DNA of 64,000 nt from Bacilli bacterium (GTDB lineage Bacteria > Bacillota_I > Bacilli_A > RFN20 > CAG-826). The position numbers and the translations under genes were made by a program. This document shows positions 30,509 to 63,522 of this stretch, piece by piece. The first letter of the stretch is position 1; every line of letters begins with the position of its first letter. The notes beneath the pieces were generated by a model, which saw nothing but the letters and a program-made list of their open reading frames with translations, was not told the origin of the DNA and did not search any database. The DNA is taken from contig JAFUXB010000004.1 of NCBI GenBank assembly GCA_017477255.1, positions 1-64,000 on the forward strand, read 5' to 3'.

Positions 30509-30536
30509 TTGACAATTTATATACAAATTATAAAAT
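30509..30536 (+). promoter_or_regulatory. Promoter of the isomerase-MsmK-ROK operon
   Basis: TTGACA (30509-30514) and TAAAAT (30531-30536) are 16 bases apart. The -35 overlaps a possible upstream start codon, confirming that translation begins at 30575. Confidence 0.65.
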
Positions 30537-30540
30537 ATTA

Positions 30541-30557
30541 TTATCAATTATTGATAA
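30541..30557 (+). promoter_or_regulatory. Candidate ROK operator, site 1
   Basis: TTATCAA-TTA-TTGATAA is a 7-3-7 palindrome at the expected transcription start. A second copy (TTATCAA-TAA-TTGACAA) overlaps the -35 of the importer promoter at 38027. The only local repressor that would need both is the ROK protein at 34505; this pairing is inference. Confidence 0.6.
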
Positions 30558-30574
30558 AATTATTGGAGAATAAT

Positions 30575-32020
30575 ATGAGAATTAAAATCGGTTTAGTTGG
30601 TACAAGCCAAAAATCATTTCCAGGACCAAAAGAAGAGGTCTATGCAAAGATTTGTGAGCAAATGAAACAAAACGCCCAAGAAATGGGTTTTGATTTTGTT
30701 GCTTGGGAAAAACAAGTTATTTACGAAAATGAAGCAAAAGAATGCGTAAAATTTATGGAGGAACAACACGTTGATTTCTTCATGGTATTAAATGTTTCAT
30801 ATTCGGCAGGGTTTTTAACACCAATTTTTTATAAAATAAAAGGAGCTAAAGTAGGTATTTGGTCAATACCAGAGCCTCATGAGGGTGTTACATTATTTAA
30901 TTCATTCTGTTCAAATAACATGTACCAAGGAATTAATACACAATATTTCAAAGATTTTGGAATTAAGTGTAAATGGTTCTATGGAATGGCAGATGATCCT
31001 CAATTTAAACGTAGATTGTGGGTTACAGTTAAAGCATTAGGCGCAATTAAGAAATTAAAGAATAGTAAAGTTGCTTTAATTGGTGGTTTTGCTCCTGGTT
31101 TCTATGATTTATATTTTGATGAAAGATCAGTTATTACTAAACTCGATGGTATTCAAATTAATAGACTCCATGAATATGATGAGATTATTAAACTTGCTAA
31201 TGAAGTAACCGACGAAGAAGTTAAGCCATTCTTAGATGACTTAGATAAAAAAGGCATTAAATGCACCCCTAATGTTATGAAACTTAGAGGTTGGTCAATT
31301 AAAATGTATTTAGCATATAAGAAATTTATAGATATGTATCATTACGATGCAATCGCTGTTTCTTGTTGGCCAAAATTCCAAGATGATTACAAATATTCAG
31401 TATGTTCTGTTCTTGGAATGTTAAACGATGATGGTGTTGTTGCTGCTTGTGAAGGTGATTTAATGAGTGCAATTTCAATGGTTGCTTTACAAGATATTTC
31501 TGATGAAAGCACATCATTAATGGATTTTGCTGCATTTGATAATAGTGATGATTCAATTATGCTTTGGCATTGTGGTCCAGGTTCACTTAAGTTCTGTAGA
31601 CATAATGGTTATACATTAGATGAAAACTATAGTGGTATGGAACATCCAAAAGGAAAAATCGTTGGTACTGCAGTAGTTAGAAACATGGTTTTTGATCCAA
31701 ACAAAATAACTGTATTTAGATTCTCAGGTGATATGGATAGATACATTAATTTAACTGGTGAATTTATGGGTGATGTTAAACCATCAAACTGTGGTTCACG
31801 TGGTTGGATGAATCATCTTAAGTTAAATAATAAAGAAATTAATGCACAAGATTTTACAAATACTGTTTTATCAAGTGGAATTGAGCACCATTATCCAATG
31901 TGTTTAGGAGATTATGGTGAAGTAATTACTGAGATGAACAAATGGTTAGGTATTAAACCTGTAAGAAAGATTAAGTACGAAAATTATTTACAAGATAGTG
32001 AGGATATGGAAAATGAATAA
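30575..32020 (+). CDS. L-fucose/L-arabinose isomerase-superfamily protein
   Basis: A cytosolic protein of about 480 residues related to FucI and AraA (COG2407 type), which interconvert aldoses and ketoses with a divalent metal. Typical stretches are VLNVSYSAGF, IGGFAPGFYD, the metal-site region ACEGDLMSAISM and DIMLWHCGP-like SIMLWHCGPGS. Given the surrounding arabinofuranosidases, an arabinose-to-ribulose reaction is plausible. FucI also accepts D-arabinose, so the enantiomer is open. TTGGAGAA at 30564-30570 supports ATG 30575. It overlaps the next gene by 8 bases. No ribulokinase is encoded nearby, which is odd for an isomerase operon. Confidence 0.75.
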   Translation: MRIKIGLVGTSQKSFPGPKEEVYAKICEQMKQNAQEMGFDFVAWEKQVIYENEAKECVKFMEEQHVDFFMVLNVSYSAGFLTPIFYKIKGAKVGIWSIPEPHEGVTLFNSFCSNNMYQGINTQYFKDFGIKCKWFYGMADDPQFKRRLWVTVKALGAIKKLKNSKVALIGGFAPGFYDLYFDERSVITKLDGIQINRLHEYDEIIKLANEVTDEEVKPFLDDLDKKGIKCTPNVMKLRGWSIKMYLAYKKFIDMYHYDAIAVSCWPKFQDDYKYSVCSVLGMLNDDGVVAACEGDLMSAISMVALQDISDESTSLMDFAAFDNSDDSIMLWHCGPGSLKFCRHNGYTLDENYSGMEHPKGKIVGTAVVRNMVFDPNKITVFRFSGDMDRYINLTGEFMGDVKPSNCGSRGWMNHLKLNNKEINAQDFTNTVLSSGIEHHYPMCLGDYGEVITEMNKWLGIKPVRKIKYENYLQDSEDMENE

Positions 32021-50448: not shown

Positions 50449-51297
50449 TTATGAACTTCTTTTTCTATAAGAAGAAGGCGAAACACCGACCTCTTTTTTA
50501 AAGACTTTAGTAAAATAATAGATATCTTTATAACCAACTTCATTAGCAATATTTATAATCTTCATATCAGTTTTATTTAATAAAGTCTTAGCGTGATCTA
50601 TTCGTTTTGAAATTATGTAATTAACAGGAGTAACTCCTAATGTAGATTTAAATAAACGAGCAATATAATATTTAGAAAATGGTAGTGTTTCATAATACTT
50701 ATCTAGATCAATTTCTTCAAGATAGTGCTTGTCTAAATAATCTTGTATTTTTTGCACATATTCGTTTGTAGCAGCTTTTTTATTTCCTGATGAGAATAAC
50801 TGAAGTATTTTTAAAATTATTGTTTTAGCAATGCAATTTGTAATATTTGAAGTATAGTTTAATTCTTCATTTTTAGATTCTTGAATAAGTAAATTAAATA
50901 ATTTTCTAAATGTCTTATTATTTGTTCCTGTATGTAAAATATATTCTTCGTTACAGTTTGCAAACATTTTTTTAAGAGGTTCTTTATATTTAACTGCAAA
51001 AAATAAAGCATGCATAATAGTCCCATTATCTGAATATTCTTTATGCATGTTAGAAGGGAAATATAAGATGATATCGTCAGTTTTTGCTTTATATTTTATA
51101 TTATTAATCTCAATTGTTCCTGATCCACTATCAATAAACATTATTTCTAAAAAGGTATGCTTATGTGGATTTAAGTTTTGTTTTTCTAATGCACTAAAAG
51201 TTCCAGTATAATAAGCTTCAATTTTGCTATCTAATGTAGCTAATCTTTTAATTGGATAGTGTCTTCTTTCTTTTGAATCTTGTAAATGAATTCTCAT
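50449..51297 (-). CDS. AraC-family transcriptional regulator
   Basis: A 282-residue regulator. The N-terminal cupin-like sensing domain includes NPHKHTFLEIMFIDSGSG near residue 41, and the C-terminal AraC double helix-turn-helix has YYIARLFKSTLGVTPVNYII and IANEVGYKDIYYFTKVFKKE. Proteins of this type bind a sugar and activate a nearby operon. It is divergent from the kinase-isomerase gene at 51426 and is the evident regulator of the D-arabinan locus. AGAAGG precedes the start. Confidence 0.9.
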   Translation of the reverse strand: MRIHLQDSKERRHYPIKRLATLDSKIEAYYTGTFSALEKQNLNPHKHTFLEIMFIDSGSGTIEINNIKYKAKTDDIILYFPSNMHKEYSDNGTIMHALFFAVKYKEPLKKMFANCNEEYILHTGTNNKTFRKLFNLLIQESKNEELNYTSNITNCIAKTIILKILQLFSSGNKKAATNEYVQKIQDYLDKHYLEEIDLDKYYETLPFSKYYIARLFKSTLGVTPVNYIISKRIDHAKTLLNKTDMKIINIANEVGYKDIYYFTKVFKKEVGVSPSSYRKRSS

Positions 51298-51425: not shown

Positions 51426-53018
51426 ATGCAAAAATCTATTTTAGTTGTAGGGTCTTTTGTCGAAGATCTTATAGTTCAAACAAGTAAATTTCCTTCAGCT
51501 GGTGAAAGTGTAATAGGAAATAAATTTTCACGTGCTGATGGAGGAAAAGGTGCAAACCAAGCAGTTCAAATTGCTCGTTTAAACACCCCTGTTAAATTAA
51601 TTGGGAAAGTTGGTTCTGATAGTTTTTCAAAAAGCCTTGTTTCTACATGTTTAAAAAGCGGTGTAAACGTTGAAGAAGTTATTCAAGATGAAGGAAATCC
51701 TGGAATTTCTGTTGTTGTTTTAGAAGAAGTTAAAGAAGGATTTCAAAATAGAATAATAATGACTCCTGGAGCAAATAATCGTTTAACTGTAGAAGATGTT
51801 AAATATTTGGAAAACGAAATTGAAAATTATGAAGCAATAGTTTTACAATTTGAAATTCCTCAAGAAGTTAATGATTATTTAGCTGAAATCGCTTATAAAA
51901 AAGGAGTAAAAGTAATTGTAAATCCTGCACCTTATAGAGAAGTAAGTGATGAATTTTTAAAGAATGTTACTTATTTAATTCCAAATGAAACTGAATTTTT
52001 AGGTCTTATTAAATCAAATAAAAATATTGATGAGTTCTCAGAAAACGACTTTAAAGAAGGAGCAAAAATTCTTCTTGATAAAGGTGTTAAAAATGTAATT
52101 ATTACTTTAGGATCTAAAGGATGTTGCATAGCTAATAAAGAAAATTGCCAATGTTTTGAAAGTGTTAAAAATGTTAAGTCTGTTGATCCTACAGCAGCTG
52201 GTGATTCATTTATTGGTGCATTTACTTCATTTTTAAGTCGTGGATATAGCGAAAAAGAAGCAATACTTTTAGCTAATGCAGTTGGTTCATTAACTGTACA
52301 AAAATTAGGTGCTATGCCTTCTTTATGTACACTTGAAGAATTAACTGATTATGTTAAAGGATTAAAATATGCACCATATAAAGGATTATATGCATTATTA
52401 AAGAATAATAATTTTGAATCAGTTGACGTCTTAGATGTATTTAAATCAACTGTTTTATCTGAAATTACATATACTTTAGGCACATTAAATAAAGAATTTT
52501 ATGAAAGTGCATTAGATTTAATTTTAAAAGCAAAAGAAAATGGCAATAGAGTTCATATTACTGGTATTGGTAAACCATCTCACATTGCTCAATATTTTGC
52601 TTCACTTTTCTCATCAACTGGAACGCCAACTTATTATTTACATGGAACTGAAGCAGTTCATGGAAGTTGTGGCCAATTAGTTAGAGGAGATGTAGTCATT
52701 GCTATTTCAAATAGTGGAAATACAAGTGAATTAATCAATACAATTGAAGCTTGTAAAAGAAATGGTTGCAAAATAATTGGAGTAACAGGTAATGAATCAA
52801 GTAAACTTGCAAAATTATCTGATGCCCATTTACTTGCTCATATAGAAAATGAAGGTGGTCCTTTAAATAGAGCACCACGTTCATCAATTTTAGCTGAAAC
52901 TTTAGTTCTTCAAGGCTTATCTGTCTTACTTCAAGAAGATGCTAAAGTTACTCCAAAGCAATACGTTAAATGGCATCCAGGTGGTGCTTTAGGCAAAATA
53001 AGAGATAATGAAAAATAA
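51426..53018 (+). CDS. Ribokinase-SIS fusion: probable D-arabinose kinase/arabinose-5-phosphate isomerase
   Basis: A 530-residue two-domain enzyme. Residues 1-310 are a PfkB-family ribokinase with GGKGANQA (38-45) and the catalytic DPTAAGDSFIGAF. Residues 330-530 are a SIS-domain sugar-phosphate isomerase of the KdsD/KpsF/GutQ type: GIGKPSHIAQYFASLFSSTG, SNSGNTSELI and the diagnostic HPGGALGK at the end. CBS domains of KdsD are missing. KdsD interconverts D-arabinose 5-phosphate and D-ribulose 5-phosphate, so the fusion would phosphorylate D-arabinose at C5 and isomerise the product. Each family is clear; the sugar is inferred from the neighbouring GH183 and GH172 genes. It heads the operon. 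Confidence 0.85.
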   Translation: MQKSILVVGSFVEDLIVQTSKFPSAGESVIGNKFSRADGGKGANQAVQIARLNTPVKLIGKVGSDSFSKSLVSTCLKSGVNVEEVIQDEGNPGISVVVLEEVKEGFQNRIIMTPGANNRLTVEDVKYLENEIENYEAIVLQFEIPQEVNDYLAEIAYKKGVKVIVNPAPYREVSDEFLKNVTYLIPNETEFLGLIKSNKNIDEFSENDFKEGAKILLDKGVKNVIITLGSKGCCIANKENCQCFESVKNVKSVDPTAAGDSFIGAFTSFLSRGYSEKEAILLANAVGSLTVQKLGAMPSLCTLEELTDYVKGLKYAPYKGLYALLKNNNFESVDVLDVFKSTVLSEITYTLGTLNKEFYESALDLILKAKENGNRVHITGIGKPSHIAQYFASLFSSTGTPTYYLHGTEAVHGSCGQLVRGDVVIAISNSGNTSELINTIEACKRNGCKIIGVTGNESSKLAKLSDAHLLAHIENEGGPLNRAPRSSILAETLVLQGLSVLLQEDAKVTPKQYVKWHPGGALGKIRDNEK

Positions 53019-53028
53019 GGAGAAGATT

Positions 53029-54408
53029 ATGAAAACAAGAAGTTTATCAAAATTTATCGTTCCAGCTTTATTTGTTGTAGCTTTAACTGCTGGTTGTAAA
53101 AGCAAAAGTAAAGATCCAGTCGAAGAAGGCGCAACTATTATTACAATGTATTTAAGAAACTTTGAAGACTGGTCAAATGAATACATGAACAAAAGAGTTA
53201 AAGAATTTAATAGCAATATGGAAGATGGAATTCAATTAAGTGTTAAATTCTTTGAAGATGAAGCATATACTGATGCTTTTAAAGTTGCTAAAGAAAATGG
53301 TTCAGCTCCTGATATTTTTATGTGTTCTTATGGAAACATTTATCATGACGTAGTTGAAACTGGTGATGGAGTACCATTAAATGATTTAATTAAACAAGAA
53401 TATATCGATGATATTTCAGATAACATTAAACCAATGGTTACATATAATGATAAAGTTTATGGTTATCCTCAACTTAGTGAACCAAGTAGTATTTTCTTCT
53501 ATCGTAAAAGTATGTTAAATACTGCTGGAGTAGCAAGTGCTCCTTCAACTTGGGCTGAGCTTTTAGAAGCTTGTAGTAAAATTAAACCTACACTTAAAAG
53601 AGGACAATATTGTGTTGGAATTCCAATTGGAAGTGCATTAAGTTGGTCAACTTATGGTCTTCAATATAATTTAACTGGTGGTTTAGCTTTAAACGATGAC
53701 TGGACTCAAAGTAGAGTAGGAACAGAAGAAGGATTTAAAGATATTGCTGGTTTATGGTATGACCTATATGGAAATGGTTATGTACCAAATGGTGCAATTT
53801 CTCCAAAAGGAAGTTATAACGATATTATCGAAGGTATGATGATGGGTAAGGTTGCTATGACTTTTGCTGGATCTTGGTCAATTGCTGAAATTATGCATAC
53901 TTATAGTGATTTAGCTAGTGATGTTGGAGTTTCAGTTATTCCAACTAAAGATGGAAATACATCAAAAGTAACTGCATCTAATGGTGGATGGACTTATGCA
54001 ATTTCATCACAATCTGATAAAGAACATCAACAAAAAGCAGCAAAAGTAATCGAATGGTTATTTGCTGAAAGTCCAGAAAGAACTGCTGGATTCTTCGAAG
54101 CCGCTTATTATTCAAAAGCCGCTGTTACTAATTCAGTAAAAGCTTATATTAGCGAACATGTCGAAGATAATTTAAAAGAATGGACTAATGTTATTAATGA
54201 TGTTGCTTCAAAAGCAATTCCTGAAGCTACATATCCTTGGTCAATTTCAGTAGCAGTTGGTACTATTTTTGAAACTTGTGGATTAAATGCAGATTTAAAT
54301 AAAGGTGAAAGTTATAAAACTACAACAATAAATAATGCAATTAAAACTGCAGATGATTCAATTAATGCAATTATTCATAGTTCGTCTTGGGAAGGAAAAC
54401 CATTCTAA
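53029..54408 (+). CDS. Sugar ABC transporter substrate-binding lipoprotein
   Basis: A 459-residue family 1 solute-binding protein with lipobox ALTAGC. EEGATIITMYLRNFEDW opens the mature domain, and GMMMGKVAMTFAGSWSIAEI near residue 280 is the usual signature. It would capture D-arabino-oligosaccharides released at the surface. Start: ATAAGGAGA at 53014-53022 points to ATG 53029, 10 bases after the kinase stop. It is followed by two permeases but no ATPase. Confidence 0.88.
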   Translation: MKTRSLSKFIVPALFVVALTAGCKSKSKDPVEEGATIITMYLRNFEDWSNEYMNKRVKEFNSNMEDGIQLSVKFFEDEAYTDAFKVAKENGSAPDIFMCSYGNIYHDVVETGDGVPLNDLIKQEYIDDISDNIKPMVTYNDKVYGYPQLSEPSSIFFYRKSMLNTAGVASAPSTWAELLEACSKIKPTLKRGQYCVGIPIGSALSWSTYGLQYNLTGGLALNDDWTQSRVGTEEGFKDIAGLWYDLYGNGYVPNGAISPKGSYNDIIEGMMMGKVAMTFAGSWSIAEIMHTYSDLASDVGVSVIPTKDGNTSKVTASNGGWTYAISSQSDKEHQQKAAKVIEWLFAESPERTAGFFEAAYYSKAAVTNSVKAYISEHVEDNLKEWTNVINDVASKAIPEATYPWSISVAVGTIFETCGLNADLNKGESYKTTTINNAIKTADDSINAIIHSSSWEGKPF

Positions 54409-54417
54409 TAAATTTTT

Positions 54418-55344
54418 ATGATTTATACAGAAGACAAATTTCAATTAGTAGACAAAAAGCGCCACAATAGATATAAATATCGTGGACAAACAACAGCATA
54501 TTTAATGCTTCTTCCAGCTTTTGTTTTGCTTAGTATTTTTGTTATTCTGCCTTTAATCTTAGCTATTATAAGAAGTTTTCAAGATTATAATACTAAAGCT
54601 TTTGTAGGATTTAGTAATTATGTATATCTATTTGAAATGGATACATTATTTTATAAATCTTTCTTAACAGCTTTACTAATGACAACGATAATTTCTGTAA
54701 TTTTACTTGTTATTTCATTTGGTTTTGCGCTTGTTTTAAAAGCAATGGATAACAAATTTGGGAAACTAGTAAAAGTTTTAATTTATGTTCCTTTCTTTAT
54801 TTCAGGAATTATTGCTAGTGTTATATTTAATTTAATTTTTAATTATGGAGGAGGACTTATTTCAAGTATTTGTGTTTTACTTGATAAAGATCCAATTTCA
54901 TTTACAAATGATACAACTCTTGCATATATTTCAATTATTGTTCCTACAATATGGCTTGGATTTGGATATAACACGCTTGTAATGTATGCAGGACTTATTA
55001 ATATTCCAGAAGATTATTATCAAGCAGCAAATGTTGATGGAGCAAATTGGTTCCAAAAATTATGGTTTATTACAATACCAAATATGAGGAATTATATTGT
55101 TTTACTTGTAATTAATATGGTCACAGGTTATATGCAAATGATGGAAATTCCAATGATGATGACTGGTGGAGGACCATTAAATACAACATTAACACCTGTT
55201 TTATATTTATTTAATTCATTTAGAGATCCAAGTAGACCAGATAATGTCACAATTGCTGGAGCCATTTTAATTATGATTTTTATTATGGCAGTTAATATAT
55301 TTGTTTTTAAAACAATTAAAACAAGAAGAAGTGAGGATGTTTAA
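54418..55344 (+). CDS. Sugar ABC transporter permease (MalF/UgpA type)
   Basis: A 308-residue six-helix permease. The EAA coupling loop is DYYQAANVDGANWFQKLWFI near residue 200. It forms the importer with the next gene and the preceding binding protein. No strong ribosome-binding site is visible, so translation probably depends on the upstream gene 9 bases away. It should dock on a shared MsmK ATPase. Confidence 0.9.
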   Translation: MIYTEDKFQLVDKKRHNRYKYRGQTTAYLMLLPAFVLLSIFVILPLILAIIRSFQDYNTKAFVGFSNYVYLFEMDTLFYKSFLTALLMTTIISVILLVISFGFALVLKAMDNKFGKLVKVLIYVPFFISGIIASVIFNLIFNYGGGLISSICVLLDKDPISFTNDTTLAYISIIVPTIWLGFGYNTLVMYAGLINIPEDYYQAANVDGANWFQKLWFITIPNMRNYIVLLVINMVTGYMQMMEIPMMMTGGGPLNTTLTPVLYLFNSFRDPSRPDNVTIAGAILIMIFIMAVNIFVFKTIKTRRSEDV

Positions 55345-55345
55345 T

Positions 55346-56188
55346 ATGAATAAAAGAAAAGTTATTAAAACATTAATACTTTCATTAATTTGTTTAATTG
55401 TTGTTGCAATTATTCTTTTCCCTATAATTTGGATGCTTCCTGCTGCATTTAAAGGAAAAGTAGAGATTTGGGCTCTTCCAAATACTTGGCTTCCAAAAGT
55501 TTTTAAATTTGATAATTTTGAAAAAATATTTAGTGATAACTTAATGAATGATATAAGCTTTGTTTCTTCACTTGGAGCAACAAGTTTAGTTAGTGTTATT
55601 GCTGTTGTTTGTTCACTTATTGTAAATATGTTTGCAGCTTATGTATTTGCAAACTTTGAATTTAGAGGGAAAAATTTCCTTTGGTATTATTTCCTTATTA
55701 CGATGTTTATTCCAGGAATTACAATTTTATTAACTTCAATTAGAGTTGTTTCTGTATTAAAAATGACTGATACAATCGCTGTTTTAATTATTCCTGGTTT
55801 AGTTAGTGCTTATAATATTTTCTTCTTTAGACAATTCTATTTTGGAATTCCTAGAAGCTTAGAAGAAGCTGCAATTATTGATGGATGTTCAAGATTTAGA
55901 ATATTCTTCAAAGTGTTTTTGCCAATGAGTGTTACTCCAATGGTTATTATTGGAGTCAGTGTATTTATGGGTTATTGGAACTCATTTATGTGGCCAACTT
56001 TAACTATTGTAAATAATTCAGCAATAGCCCAAGTTATGCAAGTAATTAGACAATTAAATAGTACATATTCTGGAGAATATGGAGTTGTTATTGCTGCTAC
56101 ATTAATTTCAATTTTAATTCCTTTAACTTTATTTACTATATTCCAAAAGAAAATTATTGCTGGTATTGCAATTAGTGGACTTAAATAG
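55346..56188 (+). CDS. Sugar ABC transporter permease (MalG/UgpE type)
   Basis: A second six-helix permease of about 280 residues. EAA loop: SLEEAAIIDGCSRFRIFFKV; C-terminus GIAISGLK. GAGG at 55333-55336 fits ATG 55346, the base after the previous stop; earlier in-frame ATGs at 55301 and 55337 are less suitable. GH172 follows after 9 bases. Confidence 0.88.
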   Translation: MNKRKVIKTLILSLICLIVVAIILFPIIWMLPAAFKGKVEIWALPNTWLPKVFKFDNFEKIFSDNLMNDISFVSSLGATSLVSVIAVVCSLIVNMFAAYVFANFEFRGKNFLWYYFLITMFIPGITILLTSIRVVSVLKMTDTIAVLIIPGLVSAYNIFFFRQFYFGIPRSLEEAAIIDGCSRFRIFFKVFLPMSVTPMVIIGVSVFMGYWNSFMWPTLTIVNNSAIAQVMQVIRQLNSTYSGEYGVVIAATLISILIPLTLFTIFQKKIIAGIAISGLK

Positions 56189-56197
56189 GAGGTCAAT

Positions 56198-57304
56198 ATG
56201 GATTCAACAAATATTACAAATATCTTTAAAACATTAAATTTCAAAAGAAAAAGATTTTCAAGTTATGATAGAAAAGGTGGTAATGACGATAGATTCTATG
56301 TTAAACCACATGAAACTATGACTTTTGGCGAAATTGATAAGCCAGGAGTTGTTAGACATATTTGGATTACTATTAATAACATCATGGATGATGTTTGGGA
56401 AATAGAAAAAAATGCTTTAAGAAAGGTAGTTTTAAGAATTTATTGGGATGATCAAAAAACTCCAGCAGTTGAAGCTCCTTTAGGTGATTTCTTTGGAATG
56501 GGTCATGCAATGTGTCATAACTTTGTTAGTGTTCCTTTACAAATGTCACCTGAAAATGGAAGAGGTTTTAATTCATGGTGGCCAATGCCATTTAAAAAAG
56601 CAAGATTTGAAGTAACTAATGATTGTAATAACGTACTCGTTTTATATTTCTATATTGATTATGAAGAAAGAGAAGTTGATGAAGAAATGAGATTCCATGC
56701 AAGATGGAGAAGAGTATGTCCAACTAAGGGAATTAGTGAAGAAAATAGACATGAAGATAATTTATTCTATTGTCATGGTGGAGAAAATGTCGATGGTAAG
56801 GACAATTTCTTAATTTTACATACAACTGGTAAAGGACATTATTGTGGTTGTAATTTAAATATTCATAATTTATCTAATTCTACTGAATGGGATTGGGTTG
56901 GTGAAGGTGATGATATGATTTTTATCGATGGTGATAAACTTCCTACACTAAATGGAACTGGAACTGAAGATTATTTCAACACTTCCTGGTGCCCAACTCA
57001 AGAATATAATGCCCCATATCATGGTGTAATTTTACCTGGAAAAGATAACTGGAAAGGAAAGATAACATATTATCGTTATCATATTTTAGATCCTATTCCA
57101 TTTGAAAAAGAAATTTTAGTGAGCATTGAACATGGTCACGCAAATCATAGAAGTGATGATTTCTCTGTCACAGCATATTGGTATCAAATTGGTGAAGCTT
57201 CATTTAGAGAAGAAATGCCAAGTGTTGAAGAAAGAATGCCTGTAGACGAAGAAATTTTAAAACAAAACAAAATTGTTAAGGAGGACGTTTCTATAGATAA
57301 ATAA
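56198..57304 (+). CDS. GH172 (DUF2961) exo-D-arabinofuranosidase candidate
   Basis: A 368-residue cytosolic protein, with no signal peptide. The DUF2961 jelly-roll core is clear: YDRKGGNDDRF near 23, GPGVVRHIWIT-like PGVVRHIWIT near 49, LGDFFGMGH near 95, then WVGEGDDMIFIDGD and GTGTEDYF. Glu236 and Glu257 are 21 residues apart and fit the catalytic pair of characterised GH172 enzymes. GH172 includes exo-alpha-D-arabinofuranosidases and difructose-dianhydride enzymes; the GH183 neighbours favour D-arabinofuranose. It would release D-arabinose from imported oligosaccharides. AGGAGG precedes the start. Family strong, substrate inferred. Confidence 0.87.
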   Translation: MDSTNITNIFKTLNFKRKRFSSYDRKGGNDDRFYVKPHETMTFGEIDKPGVVRHIWITINNIMDDVWEIEKNALRKVVLRIYWDDQKTPAVEAPLGDFFGMGHAMCHNFVSVPLQMSPENGRGFNSWWPMPFKKARFEVTNDCNNVLVLYFYIDYEEREVDEEMRFHARWRRVCPTKGISEENRHEDNLFYCHGGENVDGKDNFLILHTTGKGHYCGCNLNIHNLSNSTEWDWVGEGDDMIFIDGDKLPTLNGTGTEDYFNTSWCPTQEYNAPYHGVILPGKDNWKGKITYYRYHILDPIPFEKEILVSIEHGHANHRSDDFSVTAYWYQIGEASFREEMPSVEERMPVDEEILKQNKIVKEDVSIDK

Positions 57305-57356: not shown

Positions 57357-59792
57357 ATGTTTAAAAGTGTACTAGGAATGACTTTAGCTGCATTGATAGG
57401 CGTTGGCGCTGCTCATACGGTTCCTCAAAATAATGTTAGAAGAGCTTTTGAGCCATTAGCTGAAACTGTTGATGTATACGGGACACACAATTACTTTACT
57501 GGTGATGGTGGTGTTTTTAACGGAAATGGAAATGCGCTTTTGAAAGATCAAGTTGAGGGTGATATTACTTATACTCGTTTAACTAATGCAAATGGCGCAG
57601 ATAATTGTTATTTATTAATGGACAATGAAGAAAAACATGCAGGAAACTACATCTTCACCGCCAAAATGAGAGTTAGTGAAGGATTCACTGACGAAAATAT
57701 TGGCTTTGGCTTCTGGGCTGGAGGTCGTATTAAAGATACTACTATTTCATCTCAATTAAAAGCAGGTGAATGGACAGACGTTGAAGTAAGATTCGAATTT
57801 AATGAAGATGAAGCAAGCAAAACTGATTCAATTCACATGTGGATTTTACTTGCAGGTGGTCATATCGATTTTTATGATATGCAATTTAGACAACTCTTTG
57901 TTGGTAATTTAGGCGAAAACATCTTCAAAGATGAAGGTTTTGAAAATGTCGATTTATCAGGCGGAGATAGAACTGGTTGGAACGATAGACATAGTGGTGT
58001 TATCGGATGTAAAGCAAATCAACTTCTTTGGACAAGTGAAGGAGAAGGTGATGAGAAAAACCAATTCTTAAGAATGAGATATACTGGAGAAGGAGACGTA
58101 CAATTTGTCGATTTCTGTTCATTCTTTAATGATTATAATGGTTCATGGCCAAAAGGTATTGAAGCTGGCGAATATTATGTTGAAATGGATGTAAGAACAA
58201 ATGATTTATTTGATTCAGATAATGTTGGTTTTGCATTCTATTCAAGTGCAGGTCCAAGAATTGAAAGAGACTTTACTCCACAAGTAAAAGCCGCTAAAAA
58301 AGGTGAGTGGACTCATATTACTTATAGATATCCAGATTTAGGAGTTGAATTAACTCAAGCCTATGCTGATGGTGTCGACACTATTCAATTCTGGGCAAAT
58401 TCAAAAAATATTGTTGGTTGGAATTTAGATATTGATAACGTTACTATTAGAAAAGTAACATTAGCAGTTGATGAAAGACCTGAATTTGACGGTGGCGTCT
58501 ATTCATTCCAATGGGTAGAAGCAGATGATGAAGATGTTGTAATCACTTTAAAAGATTTACATGGTCACGAAGATCTTAAGATTTTATCTGGTGAATATGA
58601 ATTACTTAAAGGTGAAGAATATACTTTATCAGGAAATACTTTAACTATTAAAAAAGAATTTTTAGCTGATTATGACGATGGTGTTCATGAATTTAAAGCA
58701 GTAACAAGTGGTGGTGAAAGAGCATTTACTATCGAAGTTACTCATATTCAAGAAGACTTACCTTCAATTGAAGATTATGAATTAGAAGAAACTGTCTTTG
58801 GCGGTGACTTCAAGGATCTTGATGTTGGTTATAGAATGAGTGCAGATCAAACTCAATATGCTTGGGGTGCTGTTTCTCAATATGATGATGGCGGTTTAGT
58901 CATTGAAGAAACTGATGGAAGCCGTGCATTACAATTTAAAAAACCTGCAGATTCAACAAAAGCTTACTCTTCATCATTTGTAATTTATCATCCAGAAAAG
59001 ATCGTTGAAAATACAATCGTAACTATGGAGTTTGATTACAAATATGTTGGAAATGATACAGATGGTGCTGTTAACGTTTCATGGGTTGGTTCAAGTAACG
59101 TTTCATACCACTTAATTAATTTAAATGGTTCTAAGAATGCAAAAACTATCGAACCAGAAGCAAAATATAGACAATGGGAAATTGAATATAGTGAAGCAAA
59201 ACTTGGTTATACTCACGTTAAAGTTTCTATGAGAATTGATGCAGCTACAGTTACTGCAACTAACTCAATTAGATTCTTAATGAAATATAATGGTCAAGAT
59301 ACTCAAGAATTAAGAATTACTAATATGTCCTTAAAGAAATGGGTTAAATCATTAGGAAGCATTACTCCAGTAGAAGCTACATTTAACAAAGCTGAACCAA
59401 AAGATGTCGAAGCAGTCGTTAAATTTGCTGATGGCTTAGAATTATATGCTGTTGCTATTGATGGAAAGACAAACTATATTCCAGAAGAAAATTATGTTGC
59501 AACTCCAGCAAACACTGAAGGCGAATACAAATTAACAATTAAGAAAGAATATTTAGCTACTTTAGCAAACGGTGAACACACTATTTATGTTTCATCAAGT
59601 GAAAATGCAAGTGGCGAATATGCTGAACTTGAATTAAAACTTACAGTTACTGGCGAAGCAAAAGGTGATGAAAAACCAGCCCCAGCTAAAAAAGGTTGTG
59701 GTGGTTCAATCGTTGCTGTCGGTGGACTTACTTGTTTAATTGCTGCAATTGGTGTAGCAGTCGTTGCTCTTAAAAAAAGAGAAGAAAAATAA
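57357..59792 (+). CDS. Secreted carbohydrate-binding protein with X2 modules
   Basis: An 811-residue cell-surface protein without recognised catalytic motif. After the signal peptide there are galactose-binding-like beta-sandwiches at ~40-180, ~190-375 and ~485-665. Two CBM_X2-type modules follow the second and third of them (ILSGEYELLKGEEYTLSGN near 415; AIDGKTNYIPEENYVATP near 700). The C-terminus has KKGCGGS, a membrane helix and KKREEK. A conserved Gly-Cys-Gly-Gly before a C-terminal helix may be a lineage-specific anchoring signal. It probably holds D-arabinan close to the surface GH183 enzymes that follow. AAAGGAG precedes the start. Confidence 0.75.
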   Translation: MFKSVLGMTLAALIGVGAAHTVPQNNVRRAFEPLAETVDVYGTHNYFTGDGGVFNGNGNALLKDQVEGDITYTRLTNANGADNCYLLMDNEEKHAGNYIFTAKMRVSEGFTDENIGFGFWAGGRIKDTTISSQLKAGEWTDVEVRFEFNEDEASKTDSIHMWILLAGGHIDFYDMQFRQLFVGNLGENIFKDEGFENVDLSGGDRTGWNDRHSGVIGCKANQLLWTSEGEGDEKNQFLRMRYTGEGDVQFVDFCSFFNDYNGSWPKGIEAGEYYVEMDVRTNDLFDSDNVGFAFYSSAGPRIERDFTPQVKAAKKGEWTHITYRYPDLGVELTQAYADGVDTIQFWANSKNIVGWNLDIDNVTIRKVTLAVDERPEFDGGVYSFQWVEADDEDVVITLKDLHGHEDLKILSGEYELLKGEEYTLSGNTLTIKKEFLADYDDGVHEFKAVTSGGERAFTIEVTHIQEDLPSIEDYELEETVFGGDFKDLDVGYRMSADQTQYAWGAVSQYDDGGLVIEETDGSRALQFKKPADSTKAYSSSFVIYHPEKIVENTIVTMEFDYKYVGNDTDGAVNVSWVGSSNVSYHLINLNGSKNAKTIEPEAKYRQWEIEYSEAKLGYTHVKVSMRIDAATVTATNSIRFLMKYNGQDTQELRITNMSLKKWVKSLGSITPVEATFNKAEPKDVEAVVKFADGLELYAVAIDGKTNYIPEENYVATPANTEGEYKLTIKKEYLATLANGEHTIYVSSSENASGEYAELELKLTVTGEAKGDEKPAPAKKGCGGSIVAVGGLTCLIAAIGVAVVALKKREEK

Positions 59793-59844: not shown

Positions 59845-61134
59845 ATGAAACGTAAAGTAAGATTACTATTTTCATTGCTTAGTATGTTATGTTTAGTATC
59901 TTGTGGTGGTAATGAAGGAAATAAAGAAAATCCAAGTGTTAATCCTCCAAGTGGACAAACAGACGATAATGACGATCCATTCAAAGTTATTCCACAAGAT
60001 AGTTGGAATATAGATGATAGTGGAAAAATTAAATACGTAAGAATTAATAGTACAGCTGCAGGATTAAATGCAGCCACAGATACCTCGCAATATGGAGCAG
60101 GTGGAACTGATTTAGGTTTCCCTTGGTATGATGAAGAGGCTAAAAGATTATATGTAACTTTTGGCGATTCTTTTGTACAACACAAAATGGGTGGAGAATG
60201 GAATAGTAATGTTACTTTATATACAAATAATTTTGATTTTACTAAAGGTGTTAAATGGGAAGGAGCACTAAATGGTTCTTTTGGTGCAACTAGACAAATA
60301 ACCCCTGTAACTCAAAATGTAGCAAATAGAAATGGTTGGACTGCATCAAGTTCAGATATTTGTTCACCATTAACATCAACAACAATTCCTACTGGTGGAA
60401 TCGTTGTTAATGGAACTTATTATTTGTTTTATATGGAAGTTTATAAATTTAATCAAGTTCATGAAAGTCCAGGAATTACAAGAAATGGTATGTGGGACAC
60501 ATTTAATTCACGTGTAGTTAAATCAACTGATAAAGGAAAAACATGGACTTTATGCGATAAATTAGTATGGCAATGTCATGGTAGTGAATTTAATTGTTTA
60601 AATGGTGAGCCATTTGCTCAAATTCATCCTCTTGATATAGGAGATGAATATATTTATATTTATGGAATTAAAGGCGGAAGAGAATCTGGAGTTTCAATGG
60701 CTAGAGTTTTAAAAACCAAAATTGAAGATTTTAATGAATATGAATATTTTTGCGGCATAAATAAAACAACAAAAGAACCAACATATAGAAAAGGTGAGCA
60801 AGGTTTAGCTTATATTAAAGGAAAATCAAATTGTTTAGTAATTAGTGGAAAATGTGGAGAATTGTCACTTTCTTATAATCCATATTTTAAAAAATATATG
60901 ATTTTCTATCTTTCAAGCCAATCTCAAATTGTTTATAGATTAATGAATAATCCTTATGATTTTGGTGCACCAGTTTCAATTGCTGGACAAGGAAATATTC
61001 CATTTTTATATGGTGGAGCAACACATGAAGTAATGTTTGATAATAACGGTCAAAGAATGTTTATGTTTATTGCTCAATGGTCAGATAAAATTTATTCAAC
61101 TCATTTAGTAGAAGTAGTATTTAATAAAAAATAA
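59845..61134 (+). CDS. GH183 (DUF4185) lipoprotein, endo-D-arabinanase candidate 1
   Basis: A 429-residue lipoprotein (lipobox LVSC). The DUF4185 five-bladed propeller is recognised from GGTDLGFPWYD (86-96), TFGDSF (105-110), EWNSN (118-122), IPTGGI (181-186), the Asp-box STDKGKTW and CGELSLSYNPYFKKYM. GH183 enzymes cut alpha-D-arabinan of mycobacterial arabinogalactan and lipoarabinomannan from within. Anchored on the cell surface, it would make oligosaccharides for the importer encoded upstream. AGGAGGA (59834-59840) precedes the start. Family strong; activity inferred from family. Confidence 0.87.
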   Translation: MKRKVRLLFSLLSMLCLVSCGGNEGNKENPSVNPPSGQTDDNDDPFKVIPQDSWNIDDSGKIKYVRINSTAAGLNAATDTSQYGAGGTDLGFPWYDEEAKRLYVTFGDSFVQHKMGGEWNSNVTLYTNNFDFTKGVKWEGALNGSFGATRQITPVTQNVANRNGWTASSSDICSPLTSTTIPTGGIVVNGTYYLFYMEVYKFNQVHESPGITRNGMWDTFNSRVVKSTDKGKTWTLCDKLVWQCHGSEFNCLNGEPFAQIHPLDIGDEYIYIYGIKGGRESGVSMARVLKTKIEDFNEYEYFCGINKTTKEPTYRKGEQGLAYIKGKSNCLVISGKCGELSLSYNPYFKKYMIFYLSSQSQIVYRLMNNPYDFGAPVSIAGQGNIPFLYGGATHEVMFDNNGQRMFMFIAQWSDKIYSTHLVEVVFNKK

Positions 61135-61135
61135 T

Positions 61136-62263
61136 ATGAAGATAAAAAGTGTCGAATTTAGGGGTATTTTTAGTGGAGAACTAAGTTATAATGACACCAA
61201 AGCTTATAAAGTTGGTGGGTGTGATTTAGGGTTTCCTTTATATGATGAAAAAAAAGATAAATTATATCTTCTTTTTGGAGACACTTTTCAAGAAAATAAC
61301 TTCAAATATGATTGGCGCAGCAATACGATGTGTTTAATTAAAGAAGTTACTGATGAAGGAAGAATTATAATAGATTATTTCTTAAATAATTTAGAAAATA
61401 AAGCTTATGCATTAAGTGAAGGTCATCATCAAGATGGTTTTGAAATGACTAGAATTCCTACAGGTGCAATTGCAGCAAATAATAATTATTATTTTTATTA
61501 TTTTTCAATGAATAACTGGAAATTACCTCCTGATGAAAGAATGAATATGGGAGGGCTAGTAAAATCTAGTGATGAAGGAAAAACCTGGGAAAAAGTAAAT
61601 GAAGTTAGTTTTTTAAATGATTTAGAAAAAGAAAGCGCTGAAAAGCTATTAAATGAAGATAATAATCAAAAAGAAATTGAAAATAAAATTGATCCAAAAT
61701 CTAAATTAAATCATTCATTTACGCAAGTGTTTCCTAAAAAAGAGGGGGACTATGCATATCTTTTTGCTGAAAGTGGCTATAGAAATAACCCTTTAAGACT
61801 AGGAAGAGTAAAGTTAGAAAATATTGAAAAATATGAAGAATATGAATATTTAGTCGAGTTTAAAGATGGTAAACCAATATTTAAAAAAGGAGATGAAGCT
61901 CGACTTTTAATGCATAATAAAAAAACACCTACGATTTGCGATGGTTTTATGGGTGAAATGAGTGTTATATATAATAAATATTTGAATAAATATTGTTTAT
62001 TCACAGTAACAACTCATCCTGAAAAAGATAAAGAAGATCATGGTTTATTTATGTATTTTAGCGATACAATTTATGGACCATATAAAGACTATATTAAAAT
62101 TTGTTCATATGATGATCCAAGATTTAATATTGAGGGAATGTATGCTCCAATGACTCATGAAAAATTAACAAAAGAAGATGGAAAAATAGTTTATCTTCTT
62201 TTGTCTCAATGGATTCCTCTATATAATCCAATCGTTATGAAAATAGAATTTGAGGAAAAATAA
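61136..62263 (+). CDS. GH183 (DUF4185) protein without signal peptide
   Basis: A 375-residue paralogue that starts directly at the domain (VGGCDLGFPLYDEKKDKL, 26-43), with LFGDTF, DWRSN, IPTGAI, Asp-box SSDEGKTWEKV, and GEMSVIYNKYLNKYC. It has no signal peptide or lipobox, so it should be cytosolic, unlike its three neighbours. It may shorten long imported oligosaccharides for GH172. It begins 1 base after the first GH183 gene and shares its last base with the start of the next gene. The Thr of GGTDLG is Cys here. Confidence 0.85.
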   Translation: MKIKSVEFRGIFSGELSYNDTKAYKVGGCDLGFPLYDEKKDKLYLLFGDTFQENNFKYDWRSNTMCLIKEVTDEGRIIIDYFLNNLENKAYALSEGHHQDGFEMTRIPTGAIAANNNYYFYYFSMNNWKLPPDERMNMGGLVKSSDEGKTWEKVNEVSFLNDLEKESAEKLLNEDNNQKEIENKIDPKSKLNHSFTQVFPKKEGDYAYLFAESGYRNNPLRLGRVKLENIEKYEEYEYLVEFKDGKPIFKKGDEARLLMHNKKTPTICDGFMGEMSVIYNKYLNKYCLFTVTTHPEKDKEDHGLFMYFSDTIYGPYKDYIKICSYDDPRFNIEGMYAPMTHEKLTKEDGKIVYLLLSQWIPLYNPIVMKIEFEEK

Positions 62264-63522
62264 TGAGGTTTTGTAGGTTTTTTTCAATCATTTCTGTGAT
62301 TTTACTTGTAGGTTGTAAGGTAAAAGAGCCAGAAGTATTTTTAAGTTATGATGAAAAAGTTAAAAATATTAAACGTATAAATTATGTAACAGGAGCTGAA
62401 GCTACCTATAATACAATGGAATTTGGCCTTGGAAGTTGCGATTTAGGATATCCTTTATATATTGATGATACAGATGAAATGTATTTTTTCTTTGGAGATT
62501 CTTTTAGTCAAAATAATCAATCAGGAATGTGGAGAAGTAATGTTGTAGGAATTTCAAAAGATTTTGATTTTAGTGATGGTCTTACAATTGATAATGCACT
62601 TTTAACAAGTAGTGGTTATTTAATGGCTATTTATAATGGACATCATATGGATGAAGGAAGTGAAGTTACTAAGATTCCAACTGGTGTAATTTATTTAAAC
62701 AAAACTATTTATATGTATTATTTTTCAATGCATAACTGGAGTTTTTCTAGAGATACCAAAATGAATTATGGTGGTTGTATAAAATCAACTGATTTAGGAA
62801 AAACGCGGGAAAGAATTTATGATTTAACATGGGTTAATTTAGCACCAGACAAATCAAATGGAACAGGAAATAATGCAAATAACTACGAAAATTTAAAAGT
62901 ATTAATAAATGAAGATATAAATAATACTGAAAGAACTGAAGATTTAATTGAACTCGATGATCATTTAGGTTTTGATGCAACTCAAATATTCCCTTATTTA
63001 AATAAAGATGGCTATGTTTATTTATTTTTAGAAGGTGGATATAGAAATAGAAATTTAAAACTTGGAAGAGTCTTACCTGAAAATATTGAAAAATTCGAAG
63101 AAATTGAATATTTACAAGGGTATAAAGATAATGGAGATCCTATTTATATTAAAGGTTATGATGGTTTAAAAGCTTTATATAACAATAAAAATTCAGAAAT
63201 TACTGAAGTTCCTTTTGGAGAAATGAGTGCATTCTTTAATCCTTATTTTAATAAATATTGTTTGTTAACTGTTACAACTGGATCAGTTGATATGTTTATG
63301 TCAGAAAATATTTATGGTCCTTATAAAGAAAAAGTCCATTTATATTCACAAGGTCAAGTACCTGCTCCTATTTCTTCAACAACTGGAGAACCAATTTTAA
63401 GTGCATATGCTCCATTATCTCATGAAAAAATGTTAAAAGATGGTGGAAAGACAATGTATATGCTTACGTCTACATGGATTCCATGCTATAATCCTAGTTT
63501 ATATGAGGTGAAATTTAAATGA
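62263..63522 (+). CDS. GH183 (DUF4185) lipoprotein 2
   Basis: A 419-residue lipoprotein (lipobox ILLVGC). Domain marks are GSCDLGYPLYI, FFGDSF, MWRSN, KIPTGVI and GEMSAFFNPYFNKYC. Its Asp-box reads STDLGKTRE: the usual Trp is Arg, which could be a single T-to-C change (CGG for TGG). An insert of about 20 residues (LAPDKSNGTGNNANN) follows it. It is closest to the cytosolic and last paralogues, so the array arose by tandem duplication. Start and stop overlap both neighbours (1 and 4 bases). Confidence 0.85.
   Translation: MRFCRFFSIISVILLVGCKVKEPEVFLSYDEKVKNIKRINYVTGAEATYNTMEFGLGSCDLGYPLYIDDTDEMYFFFGDSFSQNNQSGMWRSNVVGISKDFDFSDGLTIDNALLTSSGYLMAIYNGHHMDEGSEVTKIPTGVIYLNKTIYMYYFSMHNWSFSRDTKMNYGGCIKSTDLGKTRERIYDLTWVNLAPDKSNGTGNNANNYENLKVLINEDINNTERTEDLIELDDHLGFDATQIFPYLNKDGYVYLFLEGGYRNRNLKLGRVLPENIEKFEEIEYLQGYKDNGDPIYIKGYDGLKALYNNKNSEITEVPFGEMSAFFNPYFNKYCLLTVTTGSVDMFMSENIYGPYKEKVHLYSQGQVPAPISSTTGEPILSAYAPLSHEKMLKDGGKTMYMLTSTWIPCYNPSLYEVKFK

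Follow-up and report, generated by a model that had tools for sequence, protein, structure and literature searches.

What does a protein that joins a ribokinase-like kinase to an SIS domain of the KdsD/KpsF type do in a bacterium of the class Bacilli? The gene lies in the window, by which we mean the whole stretch of 64,000 nucleotides analysed, and an earlier note on this DNA had proposed that it serves D-arabinose breakdown. Judging from sequence and gene context, we consider it highly probable that the fusion serves D-arabinan catabolism as a bifunctional enzyme, which would convert D-arabinose to D-arabinose 5-phosphate and then to D-ribulose 5-phosphate. D-arabinan is the sugar polymer found in the arabinogalactan and lipoarabinomannan of mycobacterial cell walls. 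This reading is based on the domains, the intact catalytic residues, the conserved operon, the co-occurrence of the genes and the altered residues in the sugar site of the kinase.

A single gene encodes the kinase-SIS fusion

Positions 51426-53018 of the forward strand form a single intact ORF of 530 amino acids with an ATG start and no internal stops (0), and the opposite strand has stops throughout. Pfam profiles recognized a PfkB and an SIS domain (Table 1), the kinase half carrying the AAGD motif as DPTAAGDSF and the SIS half the motif HPGGALGK, and neither Pfam nor NCBIfam profiles detected a CBS domain in the protein. The NCBIfam model kpsF (TIGR00393) scored 125 bits against an equivalog cut-off of 203.7, with the match confined to the SIS part. 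An AlphaFold2 model of the protein displayed two well-formed domains with a mean pLDDT of 87. An ortholog at locus L011 of G209, a MAG from horse faeces, is likewise a single ORF, 68% identical over the full length and located in the same operon, indicating that the fusion is real and no sequencing accident. The architecture described in the earlier note was thus confirmed, and the survey of PfkB-SIS fusions and their neighbours that it had suggested produced this second example. In the host's order, 2 of the 279 genomes searched have the fusion, namely the host and G209; no further fused copies were found in class-level samples, so that one other species among those searched has it.

A second, identical copy of the fusion gene is present on contig C3 of the host, within a 41-kb stretch that matches the window contig C7 at 99.995% identity (G000 C7:36184-77538 and C3:80001-121355, covering window positions 36184-64000 and beyond). 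Since this near-identical stretch stops at a contig end, redundancy of the assembly or of strains probably explains the second copy, and a true gene duplication was rejected on this ground. On contig C3, the first GH183 gene contains an in-frame TAA. A chance fusion or a frameshift was also rejected, as the ortholog and the redundant copy agree.

Table 1 Features of the fusion locus (window positions unless a contig is named)
Feature	Position	Strand	Basis
Probable local regulator (AraC family), divergent from fusion gene	50449..51297	-	HTH_18/AraC_binding
Kinase half, ribokinase-like PfkB, proposed D-arabinose 5-kinase	51426..52358	+	Residues 1-311; Pfam PfkB 3.8e-60 (residues 3-299)
SIS half, KpsF/KdsD type without CBS, proposed D-arabinose-5-phosphate isomerase	52428..53018	+	Residues 335-530; Pfam SIS 9.7e-23 (residues 374-495)
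Solute-binding lipoprotein of ABC sugar importer (SBP_bac_8)	53008..54408	+	Lipobox TAGC; start overlaps end of fusion gene
ABC permease 1	54418..55344	+	BPD_transp_1
ABC permease 2	55301..56188 (true start probably ~55340)	+	ORF; 86% identical ortholog in L011
GH172 (DUF2961) lacking a signal peptide; intracellular exo-alpha-D-arabinofuranosidase (proposed)	56198..57304	+	PF11175 5.2e-82
CBM_X2 protein, C-terminal hydrophobic anchor, proposed surface glycan-binding protein	57357..59792	+	PF03442; C-terminus
GH183 (DUF4185) lipoprotein, proposed endo-D-arabinanase	59845..61134	+	PF13810 2.1e-52; D88/D106 = EndoMA1 D33/D51
GH183 without signal peptide	61136..62263	+	PF13810 8.5e-44; both Asp motifs kept
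GH183 lipoprotein	62263..63522	+	PF13810 1.9e-42; both Asp motifs kept
Fourth GH183, past window end	C7:63720-64751		

The fusion gene heads an operon with D-arabinanase families

The fusion gene opens a closely packed operon in which the importer, GH172, CBM_X2 and GH183 genes lie downstream, and the divergent AraC-type gene has an ortholog (49% identical) in the same position in L011. A promoter scan gave no reliable signal. GH172 comprises exo- and GH183 endo-D-arabinofuranosidases of D-arabinan degraders (PMC10115798, PMC10509167), and in the Microbacterium locus the exo-beta-D-arabinofuranosidase belongs to GH116 (PMC10509167). We recognized a D-arabinan locus by endo-acting GH183 and exo-acting GH172 enzymes together with an uptake system, and the window contains all of these. 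All three GH183 proteins of the window keep the catalytic aspartates of EndoMA1 (D33 and D51), and no GH116 was found among the window genes scanned, whereas it is present in loci L018, L083 and L169. The GH183 gene without a signal peptide lies between two lipoprotein GH183 genes, which suggests intracellular endo-cleavage of imported D-arabinan fragments.

Upstream, window positions 25608-47294 form a second carbohydrate locus with a 1224-aa GH127 protein, a GatZ/KbaZ-like protein, a ROK protein, an importer and GH43 genes; one of its ORFs (30509-32020) had no Pfam match. These GH43 and GH127 genes raise the alternative that the kinase and isomerase act on L-arabinose. D-fructose released from alpha-D-fructofuranosides would be another candidate, because GH172 also has alpha-D-fructofuranosidase activity and, among the PDB matches of the window GH172, which include alphaFFase1, DgGH172c (8ah3) and ExoMA1 (8ic8), the closest is the alpha-D-fructofuranosidase alphaFFase1. 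Action on either sugar appears quite improbable. The conserved unit in L011 begins at the AraC gene, with no GH43 gene adjoining the fusion there, and on this basis L-arabinose use through the GH43 neighbours was rejected. In addition, D-arabinanase is the sole GH183 activity in the literature that we found, and to our knowledge no KdsD-type SIS enzyme acts on fructose or L-arabinose phosphates.

The SIS half retains the catalytic positions of KdsD

KdsD residues K59, H88, E111, E152 and H193, which we take from work on KdsD to be the catalytic ones, correspond to K383, H412, E435, E476 and H517 of the fusion, so that five of five positions are kept. The best solved match to the SIS half was 5uqi (1e-28), presumably E. 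coli CFT073 c3406, followed by KdsD (2xhz), both among the phosphosugar/arabinose-5-phosphate isomerases. The SIS half thus resembled isomerases and not the sensors or aldolases whose kinship the earlier note had named as speaking against its proposal. SIS domains do serve as sensors in RpiR-type regulators, NCBIfam models of which match the fusion weakly, and the SIS half might in principle sense a sugar phosphate and regulate the kinase without catalysis of its own. The intact catalytic positions, the isomerase identity of the nearest solved relatives and the lack of a DNA-binding domain make this very improbable.

The window SIS half is only 37% identical to 5uqi and belongs to a divergent subfamily, and we therefore only infer its substrate. 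In the SIS tree it falls in a long-branched subfamily with the kinase-SIS pairs of Treponema, Erysipelotrichaceae and Clostridia. At 15 positions that are otherwise fixed, this subfamily departs from known arabinose-5-phosphate isomerases. Its members are also encoded in operons without D-arabinanases (TRAP, PTS and lyase contexts), and the window SIS may therefore accept another pentose phosphate. In six other loci of the host's order, the SIS proteins share 55-57% identity with 5uqi and cluster with it (support 93/82). The presence of two different SIS branches in the same type of operon argues for a shared function.

Kinship with the KdsD/KpsF/GutQ family would also be expected if the SIS half supplied D-arabinose 5-phosphate for the synthesis of Kdo or a different surface sugar. 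We consider this extremely improbable, because the domain is joined to a kinase and encoded in a catabolic operon, and the nearest named relative is classed in Bacilli, a group without LPS. The fusion is the only KpsF-like SIS protein in the host (G000) and G619, and no CBS-type KdsD was found in either genome. Three loci of the host's order (L170:8735-9319, L171:2866-3450 and L172:8819-9445) hold SIS genes adjoining nucleotidyltransferase-like and HAD-like genes, a module looking, by eye, like one for surface-polysaccharide sugar phosphates; these SIS genes form a separate, distant branch. The earlier note had argued that a KdsD-type enzyme is likely to have a catabolic use in a cell without an outer membrane. 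The catabolic context supports this, but such an enzyme is not in itself new in a cell without LPS, as an arabinose-5-phosphate isomerase from Clostridium tetani is cited in PMC11301363.

The kinase half departs from ribokinases in its sugar site

The kinase half keeps the catalytic Asp of EcRK (D255, here D260 in DPTAAGD) and most of the sugar contacts (equivalents of D16, G42, K43, N46, E143 and D255), but deviates from the canonical ribose site at two positions, N14 being replaced by V12 and A98 by S95. Position 14 was Val or Met in all 11 kinases of D-arabinan loci and Asn in 21 of 25 control ribokinases, while position 98 was Gly or Ser in 10 of the 11 and Ala in every control (Fisher p = 2e-6 and 4e-8, respectively, both inflated by kinship; the control set includes three near-copies). 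D-arabinose is a very poor substrate of wild-type EcRK (KM 470 mM, kcat 1.9 per s); in simulation the Asn14 of this enzyme makes no hydrogen bond to arabinose, whereas Ala98 lies nearest to the 2'-OH of arabinose and crowds it, and A98G lifts kcat 15-fold (PMC9604405). The lid position that aligns with it is where the solved Thermus ribokinase mutant A92G (8cqx) and its wild type differ. The window kinase carries Ser rather than Gly at position 98, which counts against the D-arabinose reading.

The protein might alternatively be an ordinary ribokinase joined to an SIS isomerase that acts on D-ribose and ribose 5-phosphate, lying beside D-arabinan genes by chance. It scored 291.3 bits with the NCBIfam ribokinase model (TIGR02152), slightly under the cut-off of 299.65, and the structural matches of its modelled kinase half in the PDB include ribokinases. 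We nevertheless regard this alternative as quite unlikely: both N14 and A98 are altered, the latter change being absent from the 25 controls, the linkage with GH172, GH183 or GH116 recurs in different arrangements, and KdsD-type SIS enzymes use the arabinose configuration. The kinase-site substitutions, together with the GH172/GH183 operon, which the earlier note had not mentioned, support its proposal of catabolic D-arabinose use.

Kinase and SIS genes accompany GH183 in several arrangements

We surveyed 279 genomes of the host's order, counting GH183 where it was full-length. Full-length GH183 occurred in eight genomes, all of which (8/8) carry a related SIS and kinase in the same locus, fused in two and as separate genes, SIS then kinase, in six. 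By comparison, the SIS was found in 6 of the 271 genomes without full-length GH183 (Fisher p 3.6e-12, relatedness ignored). Partial DUF4185 matches (G155, G264 and G035) were left out of the GH183 loci; if they are counted, p becomes 5.7e-10.

Five arrangements were found in total, including two in Clostridia with GH116/GH172. The kinase and SIS are fused in the window and G209, and SIS-kinase pairs adjoin GH183 in L093, L163-L165, L167 and L168. Outside the host's order, L018 (Candidatus Caccousia) has the order GH116-GH172-kinase-SIS, and in L083 (G857) the kinase and SIS stand at opposite ends of a GH172/GH3/GH172/GH116/GH183/importer operon. The fifth, L169 of the host's order, combines GH116 with SIS-kinase and a weak mutarotase match, no GH183 being found in its genome. 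The D-arabinan label requires four changes on the SIS tree and five on the kinase tree, so that the two genes were probably brought together repeatedly.

Related genes also occur in other settings. Unfused kinase-SIS pairs (L013:9089-11603 and L016:9056-12145), and in L082:8901-16780 an SIS alone, adjoin N-acetylneuraminate-lyase/DHDPS-family proteins and an RbsD/FucU mutarotase. Because cleavage of Kdo would give pyruvate and D-arabinose, these loci could, from their gene context, be Kdo salvage operons; a search for Kdo aldolases found nothing relevant. SIS genes of the window subfamily without a kinase lie in operons that encode a PTS and proteins of the DHDPS and KDPG-aldolase families (L025:8592-12159, L027, L085 and L086), in Bacillus subtilis DE0224, Clostridia and a Coriobacteriia MAG; the PTS may stand in for the kinase there. 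A broader reading, for and against which we see about equal chances, is that Bacillota usually feed on D-arabinan by kinase-first use of D-arabinose, with at least two recruitments of the kinase-isomerase pair from different SIS branches and a single fusion, and that the same module is reused for D-arabinose from other sources, such as Kdo cleaved by a sialate-lyase-like enzyme.

Fucose isomerase is absent from most genomes with these loci

In D. gadei grown on D-arabinan, a predicted fucose isomerase was the most abundant carbohydrate-active enzyme (PMC10115798). Fucose isomerase (PF07881) was absent from G000, G209, G089, G090, G110, G136, G137, G857 and G626, while the E. coli positive control was detected; G239 and G057 have it on contigs other than that of the locus, and its presence in G239 weighs against our reading. 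Because the host MAG is 52.8% complete, absences there carry little weight, and they rest on G209 (94%) and the relatives. These findings support the suggestion of the earlier note that the fucose-pathway route is bypassed.

Discussion

In the pathway that we propose, surface GH183 endo-D-arabinanases would cut D-arabinan, the ABC importer would take up the oligosaccharides and intracellular GH172 would release D-arabinose, the roles of importer and GH172 being predicted from families and context. The kinase half would then phosphorylate D-arabinose at O5, and the SIS half would isomerise the resulting D-arabinose 5-phosphate to D-ribulose 5-phosphate, which would enter the pentose phosphate pathway; the substrates of both halves and the direction of flux through the second are likewise predicted. 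The fusion could channel D-arabinose 5-phosphate, any benefit of the fusion being presumed.

Both chemistries are known, and the novelty appears to lie in the fusion and in assigning it to D-arabinan operons: our literature search, which covered a minority of subscription journals, retrieved no description of the fusion or of kinase-first D-arabinose use in D-arabinan loci. The analysis yields candidate genes for both a D-arabinose kinase and an arabinose-5-phosphate isomerase with a catabolic role, and would account for an isomerase of this type in bacteria without LPS. Natural Gly or Ser at the lid position that has been engineered for D-arabinose use makes these kinases candidate catalysts for arabinoside synthesis. 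Furthermore, gut Bacillota would have the means to feed on mycobacterial-type D-arabinan, along a route unlike that of the characterised Dysgonomonas.

The kinase half shares with ribokinase (RbsK, TIGR02152, PfkB) the fold, the ATP/Mg site, the catalytic Asp and most sugar contacts, and differs in Val for N14, Ser for A98 and the C-terminal SIS domain. The SIS half has the five catalytic positions of KdsD/KpsF/GutQ and of the single-domain arabinose-5-phosphate isomerases (5uqi, Bacteroides fragilis 3etn and the Clostridium tetani enzyme), and like the latter lacks CBS domains, but is set apart by its low identity to 5uqi, its 15 subfamily-specific positions, its fusion to a kinase and its catabolic operon. 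The same two reactions were reportedly found in another Gram-positive bacterium, Propionibacterium pentosaceum, in biochemical work of 1959-1962 on a D-arabinokinase (EC 2.7.1.54) and a phosphoarabinoisomerase; we know of no gene for either, and the fusion would supply sequences for such a route. The D-arabinan loci of Dysgonomonas gadei and Microbacterium arabinogalactanolyticum combine GH172, several GH183 and an uptake system, as does the window, and the latter shares with it an SBP_bac_8 ABC importer. For the Microbacterium locus, PMC10509167 mentions a 'putative isomerase and kinase'. Whereas D. gadei has a predicted fucose isomerase (PMC10115798), the window would place the kinase first and the isomerase second, in one protein.
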